The translations under genes were made by a program, and so were the position numbers. The notes beneath the pieces were generated by a model that did no database searches, had not been told where the DNA came from, and saw only the letters and a program-made list of their open reading frames with translations. 20,803 bases of DNA from NCBI GenBank assembly GCA_003451675.1, contig DMCY01000096.1, positions 1-20,803 on the forward strand, in the 5' to 3' direction. Origin of the DNA: Candidatus Atribacteria bacterium (lineage in GTDB: Bacteria > Atribacterota > JS1 > SB-45 > 34-128). Below, one piece after another: positions 14,123 to 20,605 of the stretch (its first letter is position 1; every line of letters begins with the position of its first letter).

Positions 14123-14563
14123 GTGAGTCAAAAAGTTGATCGAAATCAAACTATTGAATATCTTATTAAGTATATACCTTTATTTCATAAAATATTTTTT
14201 CGAAAGGTTTGTTCTAATAAACCACCCAGACAGCATTTACAATTGCTAATGTATATCAAGAAAGACAGTGGCAAACCCATGCGCTATTATGGTCAAAAAT
14301 TGTTAATTTCAAATCCGAATATGACTGCTTTGGCTGATAAATTAATTAAAGAAGGTTTATTGGAAAGACAAACAGATGAAAACGACCGACGGATTATCAA
14401 TTTGATGATTACACCAAAAGGAAAAGAATTTCTTGAATTTCACAAGAGAAATTTAAAAAAATCGATAATAAAGCAATTGGAAGTACTTGAAGATGAAGAT
14501 ATACAGAAATTAAATGATAGCTTTGAAGAGATACAAAAAATTTTTAGTAAATTAGATGACTAG
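14123..14563 (+). CDS. MarR-family transcriptional regulator
   Basis: Cytoplasmic winged-helix repressor of 146 residues, normal for the family. The DNA-binding part lies at about 33-105: RQHLQLLMYIKKDSGKPMRYYGQKLLISNPNMTALADKLIKEGLLERQTDENDRRIINLMITPKGKEF. It contains the recognition helix (NMTALADKLIKEGLLER) and the wing Asp-Arg-Arg motif DENDRR. Helices at both ends form the dimer. The GTG start follows an AGGGGGTG ribosome site by about seven bases. It is the first gene of an operon with two ABC exporter genes, so it probably represses them and itself until a toxic ligand binds. Nothing in the sequence identifies that ligand. Confidence 0.93.
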   Translation: MSQKVDRNQTIEYLIKYIPLFHKIFFRKVCSNKPPRQHLQLLMYIKKDSGKPMRYYGQKLLISNPNMTALADKLIKEGLLERQTDENDRRIINLMITPKGKEFLEFHKRNLKKSIIKQLEVLEDEDIQKLNDSFEEIQKIFSKLDD

Positions 14564-14626
14564 ATAGTAGAAAAAGTTTTATAAAATTAAAAATACAAAA
14601 ATTTCACTCACAGGAGCAAATTTGTA

Positions 14627-16408
14627 ATGATTGAATTATTAAAAAACTTAAAACCCTATACCTTATTAATAATAGGGGTTATAGTTTTTGTTTTTTTACA
14701 ATCACTTTCGGAATTATATTTGCCTACACTTATGTCAGATATTGTAGATATAGGAGTGGTCAAGGGGGATATTAATTATATTATAAGAACTGGAGGACGG
14801 ATGATTCTGTTTGCCGTCATTGCTATGATTAGCTCCGTTTTAGGAAGCTACCTGGCAGCTAAAGTAGCGACTGGATTCGGAAGAGATCTTCGGACAAAAG
14901 TATTTACCAAAGTAGAAAGTTTTTCTTTGGAAGAATTTGATGAAAAAGGGACGGCCTCTCTTATCATTAGAACAACCAACGATATTACCCAAATTCAGCA
15001 ATTAGTAGTAACCATGCTTAGAATGTTCTTAAGAGCACCGTTGCTCTTTATCGGTGGTATTATTATGGCCGTTTCAAAGGATGCTAAATTGTCTCTGATC
15101 TTTGTGGTTATCTTACCAATTTTAAGCATTATAATTTTTTTCGTCGCCAAGAAGAGTATGTCTCTTTTTAAATCAATGCAAATTAAATTAGATAAGCTTA
15201 ATTTAGTTCTTCGCGAATATTTAACCGGTATACGGGTTATTCGGGCATTTAATCGGGAAGTTTATGAAAAGAAAAAATTCCATAAAGCCAATCTTAATTT
15301 AACGGAAACAGCTATAAAAGTTAACAAACTGATGGCTATTTTAATGCCTTTAATGATGTTAATTCTTAACTTGACCATTGTAGCTATTATTTGGTTCGGA
15401 AGTATACGAATTAATAATGGTGGTATGCAAGTCGGGGATTTAATGGCATTTATTCAATATGCATCACAGATTATGTTTTCTTTAATTATGGTTTCAATGA
15501 TGTTTATCATGCTACCCCGAGCAGCAGTATCGGCAAACCGGATTAATGAAGTTTTGGAAGTTGAACCAAAAATTAAGGATCCCTTAACTTTGAAAGAAAA
15601 TAAGTTAGAGAAAGGAGATAATGGTCCTAAATCAGAAGGTCCTATAATACAAAAAATAAAAAAAAGAGGTTATCTGGAATTTGATAAGGTTAGCTTCTGT
15701 TACCAAGGTGCGGAAGAACCGGTTCTTGAGAATATTTCATTTAGTGCTAAGCCGGGGGAATTAACGGCGATTATCGGAAGCACAGGTTCCGGAAAATCAA
15801 CCCTGGTTAATCTTATTCCAAGATTCTATGATGTAACCTCGGGTCGTATTTTAGTTGATGGTGTTGATATCCGAGAGTTAACTCAAGAAAAATTACGTGC
15901 CAAGATTGGATTAGCTCCTCAAAAAGCCGTTCTCTTTACGGGAACTATTGCAGAAAACATTAGTTTTGGAAATAATAATTTATCTCGCGATGAAATTGTC
16001 AGAGCAGCCGAAATTGCTCAAGCAGCAGAATTTATTTCTACTACGAAACAAGGTTATGATTCTCCAATTGCCCAAGGGGGAACTAATATCTCAGGGGGAC
16101 AGAAACAACGATTAGCTATTGCCAGAGCTTTGGCCAAACATCCTGAAATCTATATTTTTGATGATTCTTTTTCCGCTCTTGATTTTAAAACAGAGGCAAA
16201 ATTACGAGTAGCAATTAAAAAAGAGATAAAAAATGCTACCGCTTTAATTATTGCTCAACGAGTTACCACTGTTATGGATACAGACCAAATTATTGTTTTA
16301 GATGAGGGCAAAATTGTAGGTATAGGTAAACACCAAGAGTTAATCAAGACCTGCAAAGTCTACAGGGAAATCGTGGCTTCACAGCTCTCAGAAGAGAAGT
16401 TAGCATGA
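14627..16408 (+). CDS. Heterodimeric ABC exporter, subunit with degenerate ATP site
   Basis: Half-transporter of 593 residues: six-helix exporter domain (about 1-310), charged linker (about 322-350), nucleotide-binding domain (352-590). Walker A is GSTGSGKST (384-392) and the signature ISGGQ (488-492) is normal. The Walker B segment reads IFDDSFSALD with Asp513 where the catalytic Glu should be, and the H-loop has Gln544 (IAQRVTT) instead of His. This is the pattern of the non-catalytic partner in LmrC/D-, BmrC/D- or TM287/288-like pairs. An AGGAG site is 10 bases before the ATG. Its stop overlaps the next gene's start (ATGA), so the subunits are translationally coupled. Likely role: export of drugs, lipids or peptides; the substrate is unknown. 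Confidence 0.95.
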   Translation: MIELLKNLKPYTLLIIGVIVFVFLQSLSELYLPTLMSDIVDIGVVKGDINYIIRTGGRMILFAVIAMISSVLGSYLAAKVATGFGRDLRTKVFTKVESFSLEEFDEKGTASLIIRTTNDITQIQQLVVTMLRMFLRAPLLFIGGIIMAVSKDAKLSLIFVVILPILSIIIFFVAKKSMSLFKSMQIKLDKLNLVLREYLTGIRVIRAFNREVYEKKKFHKANLNLTETAIKVNKLMAILMPLMMLILNLTIVAIIWFGSIRINNGGMQVGDLMAFIQYASQIMFSLIMVSMMFIMLPRAAVSANRINEVLEVEPKIKDPLTLKENKLEKGDNGPKSEGPIIQKIKKRGYLEFDKVSFCYQGAEEPVLENISFSAKPGELTAIIGSTGSGKSTLVNLIPRFYDVTSGRILVDGVDIRELTQEKLRAKIGLAPQKAVLFTGTIAENISFGNNNLSRDEIVRAAEIAQAAEFISTTKQGYDSPIAQGGTNISGGQKQRLAIARALAKHPEIYIFDDSFSALDFKTEAKLRVAIKKEIKNATALIIAQRVTTVMDTDQIIVLDEGKIVGIGKHQELIKTCKVYREIVASQLSEEKLA

Positions 16409-18285
16409 GTAAAAAAAATATAAAACAGGGAACGCCAATTAAGGGATTAGGCCGTGGTCCTGGAAGTCATAGAAGTATGGCTATACCGGTAGAAAAAGCT
16501 AAGGATTTTAGGGGAACCTTAAAACGATTACTCGATTATTTAAAACCTCATAGAGTGAAGCTTATCATTGCTTTCCTGGCGGCTGTAGCCAGTACAACTT
16601 TCAGTATCATCAGTCCAAAAATTATGGGACGGGCGACCACCAAATTATTTGAAGGGTTTCTCCTAAAAATGAGAAATGTCCCTAATGCAACCATTGATTT
16701 TAAATATATTTTAAATATTATTTTCATCTTAATCGGGTTGTATGTCATCAGTGCTATATTTAAATATATTCAACAGTATATTATGGTTGATGTGGCGCAA
16801 AAAACCGTTTACAATATGAGAAAAGATATTAGCTCTAAGTTGTCAAAATTGCCTTTAAAGTATTTTGATGGAAGAACTCATGGAGAAATACTCAGTCGGG
16901 TGACCAACGATATTGATCTCGTCAGTAACACTCTTCAACAAAGTATTACTCAATTAATTACTGCTATAGTAACCCTAATCGGAATAGTAGTAATGATGCT
17001 AACCATTAGCCCGCTGTTAACTTTAGTTGCTTTCGTTACTTTGCCTTTAAGTTTTTTGGTTACTAAAGTTATTGCCAGGCAATCACAAAAATTCTTTGCC
17101 AAACAACAAAAATTTTTAGGTCAATTAAATGGTCAAGTGGAAGAAATGTACACTGGCCACAAAATAGTCAAAGCTTTTAATTATGAAAAGCAATCCATCG
17201 ATAAATTCAATAAAGTGAATGATCAACTCTATGATGCTGGATGGAAGGCTCAATTCATATCGGGGATTATTATGCCCTTGATGAGTGCTATTGGTAATCT
17301 GGGTTATGTCTTTATTGCCATCCTGGGTGGAATTTTGGTGACTAAAGGTACTATAACCATTGGTAATGTTCAAGCATTTATTCAATATTCCAGGCAATTT
17401 ACCCAACCGATCGTTCAAACAGCTAACATTGCCAATATTATTCAATCAACCATTGCGGCTGCTGAACGTGTCTTTGAAGTTCTCGATGAATCTGAGCAAA
17501 TACCGGATAAAAAAGATATGATTCATTCAGATAAACCTCAAGGCAATATAAAGCTTGAGCATATTAAATTTGGATACAATCCAGAAAAAATACTCATAAA
17601 TGATATGAATATGGATATTAAAAAAGGTCAAACTATTGCCATTGTAGGTCCTACTGGAGCTGGAAAAACAACATTGGTTAATTTACTGATGCGTTTTTAT
17701 GAAATTAATGACGGAAAAATCACCTTTGATGGAATAGATATTCGCGATATGAAACGTGGTGAATTGAGAAGTCTTTTTGGAATGGTCCTTCAAGATACCT
17801 GGTTATTCAAGGGAAGCATTAAAGAGAATATCGCCTATGGTCGGGACAATGCTATGGAACAGGAAATTGTCCAGGCAGCAAAAATGGCTTATGCTGATCA
17901 CTTTATCAGAACACTTCCTGATGGCTACGATACTATTATAAATGAAGAAGCTAGTAATCTTTCTCAAGGTCAAAAACAATTACTGACCATCGCACGGGCT
18001 ATTTTAGCTGATCCGACCATATTGATTCTCGATGAAGCGACAAGCAGTGTTGATACCAGAACAGAAATTCATATTCAAAAGGCTATGCTTGCCCTTATGA
18101 AAGGGAGAACCAGTTTTGTGATTGCTCATAGACTATCTACTATTCGTAATGCAGACTTAATTTTGGTTATGAACGAAGGAAGTATTATTGAAAAAGGAAC
18201 CCACAAAGAATTACTAAAACAGAATGGATTTTATGCTGATCTGTATAATAGCCAATTCGTTGGATTAAATAGTAAAAAAAGTTAG
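16405..18285 (+). CDS. Heterodimeric ABC exporter, catalytic-site subunit
   Basis: Half-transporter of 626 residues. The Gly/Pro-rich N-terminus (GLGRGPGSHRSM...EKAKDFRGTLKRLL) is typical of the second subunit of these pairs. Then come a six-helix exporter domain (about 50-355) and a nucleotide-binding domain (about 380-620). Walker A GPTGAGKTT (415-423), Walker B ILDEATSSVD with Glu544 and H-loop His575 (IAHRLST) are intact. The signature is LSQGQ (519-523), with Gln in place of the first Gly. So the working ATP site would use this subunit's Walker motifs with the partner's ISGGQ. The four-base overlap with the first subunit gene and its own operon with marR support a drug-type exporter. The extra loop KLFEGFLLKMRNVPNATIDF between the first two helices is usual for this subfamily. 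Confidence 0.96.
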   Translation: MSKKNIKQGTPIKGLGRGPGSHRSMAIPVEKAKDFRGTLKRLLDYLKPHRVKLIIAFLAAVASTTFSIISPKIMGRATTKLFEGFLLKMRNVPNATIDFKYILNIIFILIGLYVISAIFKYIQQYIMVDVAQKTVYNMRKDISSKLSKLPLKYFDGRTHGEILSRVTNDIDLVSNTLQQSITQLITAIVTLIGIVVMMLTISPLLTLVAFVTLPLSFLVTKVIARQSQKFFAKQQKFLGQLNGQVEEMYTGHKIVKAFNYEKQSIDKFNKVNDQLYDAGWKAQFISGIIMPLMSAIGNLGYVFIAILGGILVTKGTITIGNVQAFIQYSRQFTQPIVQTANIANIIQSTIAAAERVFEVLDESEQIPDKKDMIHSDKPQGNIKLEHIKFGYNPEKILINDMNMDIKKGQTIAIVGPTGAGKTTLVNLLMRFYEINDGKITFDGIDIRDMKRGELRSLFGMVLQDTWLFKGSIKENIAYGRDNAMEQEIVQAAKMAYADHFIRTLPDGYDTIINEEASNLSQGQKQLLTIARAILADPTILILDEATSSVDTRTEIHIQKAMLALMKGRTSFVIAHRLSTIRNADLILVMNEGSIIEKGTHKELLKQNGFYADLYNSQFVGLNSKKS

Positions 18286-18504: not shown

Positions 18505-18987
18505 TCATCTTTTTCCTTTCCATATGGACTCGACCCCGATACTATTTAACCACTCAATAACTTTTTTATTCATCCTTTCATCTCTAAATTTGAACCATTC
18601 TTTTTCATAATCAGGATAATCACCTACTACATTTTTAAAACGCCTGAAAGCTCCCTTCCCATCTAAGGCTATGCTCAATTTTTCCCTTAATAATTCATCC
18701 TCCACCTTCTCGGCAAATTCAACCATTAAATTATATCCTTCATATGATGGCCTCTCAGGGATGCAAATATAACGATCAGGGTTATTAAATAATATATCCT
18801 GGGCTAATTTAACTTCCTTTTTCTGCCAATCAGGTAAATCTTCTCTTATCTTATCTTCATCTTCTTCTGCATATCTAAATATTTCCTCTGAGGTAACAAC
18901 AACCTCTCCTGTTTCTTTATTAAGATAAAAGTCCATATCAATTCGGTCTACATTTCTCATTATCTCAGCAATCATTTCCAGATCCAC
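18505..18987 (-). CDS. UPF0158 family protein, apparent 5' frameshift
   Basis: Small acidic soluble protein of 160 residues in the UPF0158 family (function unknown). It is recognised by the early segment MDFYLNKETGEVVV, the EDLPDWQKKEVKLAQDIL stretch, IPERPSYEGYNLMVEFAE and the alternating helix GKGAFRRFKNVVGDYPDYEKEWFKFRDERM. The frame begins at a GTG (18987) with no ribosome site. A perfect GGAGG site instead precedes an ATG at 19001 by eight bases, in another frame that meets TAA after three codons. Adding one A to the A run would join this ATG to the frame as MKKLKVDLEMI, a much more natural start. So either one base has been lost (mutation or base-calling error in a homopolymer) or the gene uses the poor GTG. 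Confidence 0.85.
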   Translation of the reverse strand: MDLEMIAEIMRNVDRIDMDFYLNKETGEVVVTSEEIFRYAEEDEDKIREDLPDWQKKEVKLAQDILFNNPDRYICIPERPSYEGYNLMVEFAEKVEDELLREKLSIALDGKGAFRRFKNVVGDYPDYEKEWFKFRDERMNKKVIEWLNSIGVESIWKGKR

Positions 18988-19213: not shown

Positions 19214-19484
19214 TTATTATCACTTTCTTATTATTATAGAAATATAACCAATTTTTAACTAAAAATGATAATAAGAAATCTATCATATCTTTAAAGGGAA
19301 CAGGAAATAGTATACTGTATCTTTCGCAATTAGGATTTGAACCCTTTTTTGTAAAAAATAGTTGCGGGGTGTACTAATCGTTAGTAAATAGCGTTTAGAT
19401 GAAAGAGATAAGATGAATTCTTACTTTCGTGGGAACAACATAAGTCCAAACGGGAATGAGGATGAAAGATATAAAGGAAATGAT
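19214..19484. other. Gap between remnant and REP copy B
   Basis: Within the 579-bp gap from the UPF0158 gene to ssrA, this part holds no gene. It contains A+T-rich sequence and a GTTAGTAAATAGCGTTTAG word repeat near 19380, like the words in the left gaps. Confidence 0.4.
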
Positions 19485-19525
19485 GAGATTGGCCACGCCC
19501 TGATAAATCAGGGCTCGCAATGACA
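19485..19525. repeat. REP-like hairpin, copy B
   Basis: Same element as 1338-1375: GAGATTGGCCACG, stem CCCTGAT / ATCAGGG (19498-19513), then CTCGCAATGACA. Relative to copy A both stem sides changed together, so pairing is kept. A further GAGGAA-TGGA-TTCCTC hairpin follows at 19526-19541. The pair lies downstream of ssrA and could act as its 3' boundary, though no T tract is present. Confidence 0.7.
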
Positions 19526-19566
19526 GAGGAATGGATTCCTCAAAGAGCTAATATTTATCTATAAAA

Positions 19567-19926
19567 TGGTGGAGGCGGCGAGATTCGAACTCGCGTCCAA
19601 AGATATTTCGGTAAAAACCGCTACGAGTGTAGTCTATAATTTGGTTCTCGCTCTTTTTACCTCCCATAGACAGGATGTAAATTGAGCCAGCCCTTAATTT
19701 TCTCTTCTACCTCCCAGGGCAGTAAGGTAAAAGATAGTCCACTTTAGGTTACACCCATAAAGGTCTCGTAGACAAAAGACCTTTACAGACGTACAGCCTA
19801 ATTAGGCTGCAAATGCTAATTCTGTTCTATCGTTAGCAATTAATGTTTTTCCACGGTTTTACGAGGACATGGAACCTCGACCCGCTGTTCTTACCTCTCT
19901 TATCCCTGTCGAAACCTATCGCCCCC
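19567..19926 (-). ncRNA. ssrA: tmRNA (transfer-messenger RNA)
   Basis: One-piece tmRNA of 360 bases that rescues ribosomes on nonstop messages with SmpB and EF-Tu. The 5' end GGGGGCGATAGGTTTCGAC pairs with the 3' end CGCCTCC-A-CCA in a seven-base acceptor stem. Its third pair is G-U, the alanine identity signal. The T arm GCGAG-TTCGAAT-CTCGC is perfect and CCA is encoded. The tag frame runs from GCT at 19837 to TAA at 19802 and gives ANDRTELAFAA, a normal hydrophobic, protease-targeting ending. A stem follows in AAAGGTCTTTTGTCTACGAG ACCTTT (pseudoknot region). Its first 11 bases are also the last 11 bases of smpB, including the smpB stop. Confidence 0.98.
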
Positions 19927-20395
19927 ATTTTTTAATCTTTAATTCTCTTTCTACTTCTCTTTGGGCATCTTTTTCAGCTAATGCTTGTCGTTTATCGTAT
20001 AACCTTTTTCCTTTAGCCAGAGCTAATTCGATCTTAGCGTGACCTCTTTTAAAATAAATTCGCAAAGGCACCAGGGTTAAACCTTTCTCCTCAACCTGCC
20101 CTCTTAAACGGTTAATTTCTCGTTTATGCATAAGTAATTTACGTTTCCTTCTGGGGCCAACATTGAACATGTTACCAAAGGCATAAGGTGAAATATGCAT
20201 ATTCATTATATAAAGTTCGTTATTTTCAAATTGAGCGAAACTTTCCCGTAAGCTAACTTTACCTTCCCTTAAAGATTTTACTTCTGTCCCTTTTAGAACC
20301 AACCCTACCTCGTAAGTATCTAATATATGATAATCATGTCGTGCTTTTCTGTTTACAGCTATATTTTTTACTTCATCTTTATTGGTAAAGCTCAT
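19916..20395 (-). CDS. smpB: SsrA-binding protein SmpB
   Basis: Small basic RNA-binding protein that escorts tmRNA into the stalled ribosome; 159 residues, normal length. Diagnostic segments are NRKARHDYHI, GLVLKGTEVKSLREGKVSLRESFAQ, NVGPRRKRKLLMHKREI, LVPLRIYFKRGHAKIELALAKGKRLYDKR and the basic C-terminal tail AEKDAQREVERELKIKKWGR that lies in the mRNA channel. The ATG has GAGGG seven bases upstream and a good promoter at 20421-20449. The last codons (GG of TGG, GGG, CGA, TAG) form the 5' end of mature tmRNA, so the two genes overlap by 11 bases on the same strand and must share a precursor unless ssrA has its own internal promoter. Confidence 0.97.
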   Translation of the reverse strand: MSFTNKDEVKNIAVNRKARHDYHILDTYEVGLVLKGTEVKSLREGKVSLRESFAQFENNELYIMNMHISPYAFGNMFNVGPRRKRKLLMHKREINRLRGQVEEKGLTLVPLRIYFKRGHAKIELALAKGKRLYDKRQALAEKDAQREVERELKIKKWGR

Positions 20396-20420
20396 AATTT
20401 TTCCCTCATCTGGCAGTTAA

Positions 20421-20449
20421 ATTATAGCATAAATGGGGAGAATTCTCAA
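20421..20449 (-). promoter_or_regulatory. Sigma-70-type promoter of smpB-ssrA
   Basis: On the minus strand TTGAGA (20444-20449), a 17-base spacer and perfect TATAAT (20421-20426). Transcription would start near 20414, about 19 bases before the smpB ATG. Confidence 0.8.
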
Positions 20450-20459
20450 CATTTCGAAT

Positions 20460-20520
20460 TGCCTCATCAAAAAAGTACTCCAAATAGTATCGATGCCTCA
20501 TATAAAAAAGTACTCCAAAT
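20460..20520. repeat. Tandem direct repeat of TGCCTCAT...AAAAAAGTACTCCAAAT
   Basis: Two units 34 bases apart start at 20460 and 20494. Each has TGCCTCAT, an A run and AAGTACTCCAAAT. The AAAAGTAC-CCA core also appears at 20639, in the IS-like end to the right, so these may be transposase-binding repeats of an IS21-type element end. Confidence 0.6.
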
Positions 20521-20540
20521 TATTTTAATTATAACCTAAT

Positions 20541-20587
20541 CTCCTCTATATTTAAAGATAGAAAATTATCTTTAGAATATAGAGGAG
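20541..20587. repeat. Long imperfect hairpin
   Basis: CTCCTCTATATT (20541-20552) pairs with AATATAGAGGAG (20576-20587). Inside it AAAGATA (20554-20560) pairs with TATCTTT (20567-20573) around a six-base loop, with only a small T/AG mismatch between the two stems. No T tract follows on either strand, so it is not a standard terminator. Confidence 0.7.
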
Positions 20588-20605
20588 GTAGAAGGGAATT
20601 GTTTA

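Follow-up and report, generated by a model that had tools for sequence, protein, structure and literature searches.

The closest described system to the one presented here is the smpB-ssrA overlap of Carsonella, for which Hudson, Lau and Williams (2014, PMC4131195) proposed a feedback: maturation of the tmRNA should give a nonstop smpB mRNA, which is a substrate of its own product. That report credits Mao et al. 2009 and places the overlap in half of the Carsonella strains and nowhere else in a survey of about 2031 bacterial genome projects. The idea of the mechanism is, thus, already known from Carsonella. A related arrangement is that of selC (tRNA-Sec), which lies in or overlaps selB (PMC8124441), so that there, too, the genes of an RNA and of its partner protein share bases on one strand. 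In that case, processing has been proposed to yield a nonstop selB mRNA and to keep the products in ratio, and the arrangement is recurrent and largely conserved. It differs from the present case in that the partners are tRNA-Sec and SelB instead of tmRNA and SmpB, and in that the rescue system does not there produce a nonstop message that is also its own substrate. The third system is arfA (PMC3985003), in which the message of a rescue factor is cut, ribosomes stall near its end and the product is degraded via trans-translation. arfA is kept low in this way by nonstop mRNA and trans-translation; the cut is made by RNase III, and the truncated ArfA retains activity and acts as a backup. Here, by contrast, the cut is proposed to be made by RNase P during the birth of the tmRNA, and the product would be SmpB itself. 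The part of PMC11915505 at hand holds no mention of an smpB-ssrA overlap, and in the titles and abstracts searched, with most subscription journals lying outside the search, the overlap was unreported for Atribacterota, Desulfobacterota and Bacillota. What is apparently new in the present work is, then, the recurrence of the overlap, its stability within clades, and the presence of full-length SmpB tails with tmRNA-encoded ends.

The window, i.e., the whole stretch of DNA that was analysed, comprises 20,803 nucleotides of a Candidatus Atribacteria genome. Its smpB-ssrA unit is composed of the following features:

19567 to 19926, minus strand: ssrA (tmRNA), tag ANDRTELAFAA, CCA encoded; ARAGORN and Rfam give the same two ends.
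19916 to 19926, minus strand: 11-nt overlap, in which the 3' end of smpB is tmRNA bases 1-11 (GG of TGG, GGG, CGA, TAG).
19916 to 20395, minus strand: smpB coding sequence, 159 aa, from the open reading frame (stop TAG at 19918-19916) and NCBIfam.
19926 to 19927, minus strand: predicted RNase P cut, 19927/19926, placed by the tmRNA 5' end.
20421 to 20449, minus strand: TTGAGA-17-TATAAT, a promoter-like site with 11/12 matches that ends 25 nt ahead of the smpB ATG.

The smpB gene terminates in AAA AAA TGG GGG CGA TAG, with base 1 of the tmRNA at the first G of TGG and bases 9-11 at the stop TAG. The preliminary description had placed the smpB stop inside the mature 5' end of the tmRNA, and the open reading frame, ARAGORN and Rfam concur on that 11-nt overlap. 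Both genes are assigned with high scores. SmpB is above the curated cut-off of NCBIfam NF003843 (214.3 bits against 130, a whole-family match that spans profile positions 6-154 of 156) and also matches TIGR00086 with 200.5 bits, while the tmRNA, with a length of 360 nt, matches Rfam RF00023 with 215.4 bits (gathering score 47) over model positions 1-374 of 374. The 5' end of the tmRNA is set by a 7-bp acceptor stem, which in the predicted fold is formed with the encoded 3' end ...GCCUCCACCA and includes at its third position a G-U pair, the alanine identity pair. Cleavage by RNase P at 19927/19926 would give an smpB RNA with the end AAA AAA U. Around the smpB-ssrA unit no nucleotide repeats bearing on the overlap were found. 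A 17-nt direct repeat, two identical copies 35 nt apart, lies at 20469-20485 and 20504-20520, upstream of the smpB promoter. Downstream of ssrA there is an open reading frame of 160 aa on the minus strand (18505-18987), for which the NCBIfam search gave no match, and the plus strand carries at 14123-18285 a MarR-type regulator-like gene followed by two overlapping genes of MsbA-kind ABC exporters, all of these matches being below curated cut-offs.

The likeness to Carsonella is that smpB enters the mature 5' end of the tmRNA on the same strand there and here. The differences from the Carsonella case (PMC4131195) are several. Carsonella is an insect symbiont with genomes of 157-174 kb, whereas the overlapping genomes found here, which belong to five clades of three phyla, have 1.1-4.4 Mb. 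The Carsonella SmpB is devoid of the C-terminal tail and of the central loop, in contrast to the full-length tails with tmRNA-encoded ends described below; in the window's clade a tail loss of the Carsonella kind is absent, since the tail has 23 residues in 17/17 junctions of the 11-nt type. Finally, the overlap is variable in Carsonella, but its length is fixed within each clade here except in one genome.

We think that there is about an even chance that the overlap makes smpB and ssrA a single unit run from the smpB promoter, in which the birth of a tmRNA ends the smpB message and so couples the supply of SmpB to rescue capacity. The preliminary description had put forward such a self-limiting loop, and its interpretation as a whole is partly supported. 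The starting point is that, given the overlap, no single RNA molecule can hold both a mature tmRNA and an intact smpB message, and excising the tmRNA should destroy SmpB's own message. What we infer around this is co-transcription, cleavage before translation ends, tagging, and selected control. Both genes would form one transcription unit driven by the promoter before smpB. Early ribosomes travelling behind the RNA polymerase would get as far as the UAG (tmRNA bases 9-11) and finish full-length SmpB, and a ribosome at this stop would cover the acceptor stem on its 5' strand. When all 360 nt of the tmRNA have been made and the stem has closed, RNase P, which processes the tmRNA 5' end (PMC3985003), would cut between 19927 and 19926. 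As RNase P needs the 3' half of the tmRNA to be made first, early ribosomes would complete SmpB and late ones could not. The cut smpB message would end one base past a lysine codon, with its stop gone; later ribosomes would stall at this end and be rescued by tmRNA-SmpB. The tagged product, predicted to be residues 1-156 plus the tmRNA-borne alanine plus the encoded ANDRTELAFAA, would be degraded. From the overlap lengths, the cut would leave 1 or 2 nt beyond the last whole codon in all five clades, and none in one aberrant genome (L098, see below); short 3' extensions are those preferred for rescue (PMC3985003). Each new tmRNA would, in this way, take one smpB message out of productive use, and the outcome would be SmpB held near the amount of tmRNA, with a supply that responds to rescue capacity. 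A stronger version of the proposal, which we regard as possible but rather unlikely, is that of a convergent homeostat selected in at least five lineages, in which the birth of tmRNA by RNase P makes nonstop smpB and terminating ribosomes hold the stem open and delay that birth. SmpB and tmRNA would then be made in exclusive turns from one transcript at a nearly fixed ratio, and the tmRNA would supply part of the tail of SmpB, the protein that it works with.

The overlap is conserved among the relatives of the window. The SmpB genes nearest to that of the window are found in seven loci (94 to 61% identical), six of them titled Atribacteria or Atribacterota and one titled 'bacterium', which falls in the same phylum by the phylum search. 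All seven have the 11-nt overlap. It was found in none of the 73 other kept loci, of which 36 include a downstream tmRNA in the same orientation, no more than 200 nt away in 27 cases. The phylum search covered 50 genomes, 38 of them with an SmpB match. Reading the junction in each of the 38 gave 18 overlaps and 20 gaps of 0-42 nt, of which four are 0. The window's clade, which is presumably JS1, shows overlap in 18/18 genomes with SmpB, by 11 nt in 17 and by 36 nt in one; the seven nearest loci sit in seven of these 18 genomes and are, therefore, not additional cases. One of the 17 (L093) was counted after reading the junction by eye, its contig ending inside the tmRNA. The exception is L098 (genome G044, junction near 1942-1977), where the smpB frame is shifted just before the tmRNA and the C-terminus is altered. 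The 36-nt overlap is due to this frame change, which could be an assembly error. Conservation of the overlap among related genomes, a comparison proposed in the preliminary description, was, thus, borne out inside the clade, where 0/18 junctions are unoverlapped, but failed at the level of the phylum, where 20/38 are. In the 18 clade genomes tmRNA bases 1-13 are invariant, and the linker in which the smpB stop lies reads ATA in all of them, versus seven types in 19 distinct non-overlapping Atribacterota junctions. Since this linker is invariant, the stop is seemingly used, and uncut smpB messages are then seemingly translated to their end; as the 18 genomes have common ancestry, the comparison is no more than suggestive. 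Class A RNase P RNA was found in 7/7 clade genomes tested. The habitat of the clade is treated in PMC10826368.

The overlap also recurs in two other phyla. An even draw of 148 Desulfobacterota genomes gave tmRNA in 122 (E 1e-40). Reading these 122 loci placed smpB upstream in the fetched stretch in 68 and not in 54, and 10/68 overlap. The ten overlaps group into three families with 32, 28, and 25 nt. When these families were searched, the overlap was present in 12/12 tmRNA-bearing genomes of the 32-nt family (17 searched), 3/3 of the 28-nt family (6 searched), and 2/2 of the 25-nt family (3 searched). For Bacillota, a draw of 249 genomes gave tmRNA in 224. Junctions were read in 137 genomes, composed of two search centres and the rest from the 249-genome draw, a non-random set taken mostly by tmRNA score order or from early in that draw; smpB is upstream in 110 of them, with one overlap of 13 nt. 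The 13-nt Bacillota family has the overlap in 8/8 genomes, and five more of its members lie in the 249 draw outside the 137 read. In total, 43 of 259 distinct junctions overlap, but the family searches targeted families known to overlap and prevalence is, therefore, to be taken from the even draws. Many of the genomes surveyed are metagenome assemblies, and the taxa of overlapping genomes were resolved to the phylum or family of a locus.

An SmpB tree (FastTree, 156 rows, tail trimmed to its first few residues, 40 random non-overlapping Bacillota) separates the five overlap groups, four of them cleanly with support of 96-100. For the 32-nt group, the smallest enclosing clade also takes in L390 (gap 108), with support of 93. 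L390 was not called a reversion because its SmpB tail differs; a loss or a tree error are both possible. The fewest state changes on the tree are 6, overlap lengths and frames differ among the five groups, and most close relatives in other families are without overlap. As the five groups are separate on the tree, this short single gene suggests at least five independent origins of the overlap.

Whether such recurrence speaks for a regulatory role has to be weighed against a simpler explanation. Deletions might have joined the genes, and the tmRNA happened to provide a basic tail acceptable to SmpB, together with a stop, with no regulatory effect; RNase P would act after enough SmpB is made and the cut message would just be degraded. 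An overlap of this passive kind would persist because a new upstream stop would shorten the SmpB tail. We consider this a serious possibility, though one with less than an even chance. Taking as tail the residues after the DKR-type motif (with a hand-entered pattern), 216 non-overlapping SmpBs have 17-26 residues, with a median of 21. The whole tail has 23, 23, 25, 28, and 24 residues in the 11-, 32-, 28-, 25-, and 13-nt groups, respectively, the 25-nt count coming from one of two rows since the other has no motif match. Total tails are, thus, at or near the ordinary range in the five clades, so that protein function alone could keep the junction. L098, with 31 residues, stands apart from the other clade members. 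Constant tail length was considered as a sign of selection and dropped, because it is almost matched by a cluster of Atribacterota without overlap, with 15/17 at 20 residues, which again suits a passive overlap. So does the tight spacing that is common without overlap (gaps of 0-10 in 28/110 Bacillota junctions). A Desulfobacterota junction with a gap of 4 (L161) has an SmpB tail (RKTMERELARGLKYKKFKK) that resembles that of the 32-nt family, as though a short deletion had created the overlap, and it is possible that this junction pictures the state of that family before overlapping. Two points tell against an overlap devoid of consequences. By established biochemistry, a cut by RNase P at base 1 during translation would make nonstop messages, selected or not. 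Moreover, the SmpB tree has five gains against at most one loss, a count that seems lopsided.

The portion of the tail finished before the tmRNA begins has 20, 13, 16, 20, and 20 residues in the 11-, 32-, 28-, 25-, and 13-nt groups. The tails of the 32-nt and 28-nt families would fall short of ordinary length without the residues that the tmRNA encodes, so that the functional SmpB of both families is probably made from uncut messages. In the window's clade the cut would take off WGR only, and 31% of the non-overlapping tails in an earlier, smaller set have 20 residues or fewer.

A further alternative is that the two products come from separate transcripts: ssrA would be transcribed chiefly from a promoter that it has within smpB, full-length smpB messages would pass the stop uncut, and there would be no competition between them. 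Promoter-like anatomy speaks to this. The scans use hand-entered promoter weights, and other sigma factors lie outside their coverage. The consensus scan of 19350-20600 gave, besides the site before smpB, minus-strand sites at 20556-20528 (10/12) and at 20355-20327 (9/12, near the smpB start), and none on that strand between 20327 and 19926. It gave four promoter-like sites versus 3.5 expected from shuffles, so site counts by themselves are no proof of a promoter; terminator-like sites were found on neither strand of the same interval. The promoter that the preliminary description had seen before smpB reappears across the clade, with TATAAT placed 22-28 nt before the smpB start in 15/18 rows, window included. 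Similarly, the 32-nt family has TTGATT-17-TAAAAT before smpB in 10/12 genomes, and the 13-nt family has a 17-nt-spaced site there in 8/8, with p<0.05 in 3/8 or 1/8 depending on the scan.

Upstream of ssrA, the best site inside the window's smpB scores less than the mean of the null (p 0.97). Within the last 150 nt ahead of the tmRNA, 17/18 genomes of the clade, 12/12 of the 32-nt family, and 8/8 of the 13-nt family have no site better than a codon-resampled null at p 0.05, in agreement with the earlier remark that ssrA is without an obvious promoter of its own. A plain-shuffle null gives instead sites at p<0.05 in 3/18, 2/12, and 5/8, respectively, and only the codon-matched null takes away most of these passes. 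Internal promoter-like sites do appear in part of the set: the 28-nt family is an exception with a strong promoter-like site in smpB 115 nt before the tmRNA, above the codon null in 3/3; the 25-nt family has a similar site in 2/2 by the 160-nt scan and 0/2 by the 150-nt scan; and L098 has one at p 0.03 with the codon null. At the non-overlapping junctions a promoter-like site for ssrA is common at wide spacing. Among 175 of them, an ssrA-proximal site with p<0.05 is present in 27/47 at gaps of 41-100, 13/22 at 101-260, and 10/14 above 260, versus 7/49 at gaps of 0-10 and 7/43 at 11-40. Spacing between smpB and ssrA, thus, predicts a promoter-like site for ssrA, and the overlapping clades are like the tight class, apart from the 28- and 25-nt exceptions. 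As these sites are rare at tight spacing, tight pairs appear dependent on the smpB promoter. Where the gap exceeds 40 nt, the strong site belonging to ssrA often lies 12-50 nt upstream of it; tight pairs are mostly without one. Any RNA that reads past the smpB stop contains the tmRNA 5' end and would, once complete, be itself a substrate of RNase P. We, therefore, think that separate transcripts are an improbable explanation.

Synonymous conservation was considered as a mark of a promoter hidden in smpB and set aside. The last eight smpB codons are the top window in three clades, but these include codons inside the tmRNA, so that the top codons are partly shared with it, and for the clade of the window values of 0.66-0.67 are seen in other windows too, as in the second last.

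The smpB stop abuts tmRNA base 1 (gap 0) at L045, L100, L111, L113, L114, L132, L179, L218, L274, L296, and L303, where RNase P would leave an smpB message ending exactly in its stop codon. Among 218 distinct junctions, counted before the later Desulfobacterota loci, the gap is 0 in 10, 1 or 2 in none, and 3 in 14. An apparent 52-nt overlap at L192 was rejected as an error of the ARAGORN 5' end, the true gap being 20, and at L274, L296, and L303 the ARAGORN 5' ends were wrong, with the DNA reading giving the gap of 0. Despite these four miscalled ends and the many metagenome assemblies, an artefact of tmRNA end calling or assembly is highly improbable, as ARAGORN and Rfam agree on the tmRNA in the window and at L151, L152, L171, and L200, the same junction is found in many genomes, and base 1 is set by the acceptor stem.

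The present survey extends the 2014 report, which had the overlap in Carsonella alone. It shows one stretch of RNA that is a tRNA-like acceptor stem and at the same time encodes the terminus of the RNA's own binding protein, and it puts at hand a natural comparison between five overlapping clades and their unoverlapped relatives. If the proposed loop works, a main ribosome-rescue system of bacteria would set the supply of its own protein by means of its own substrate.
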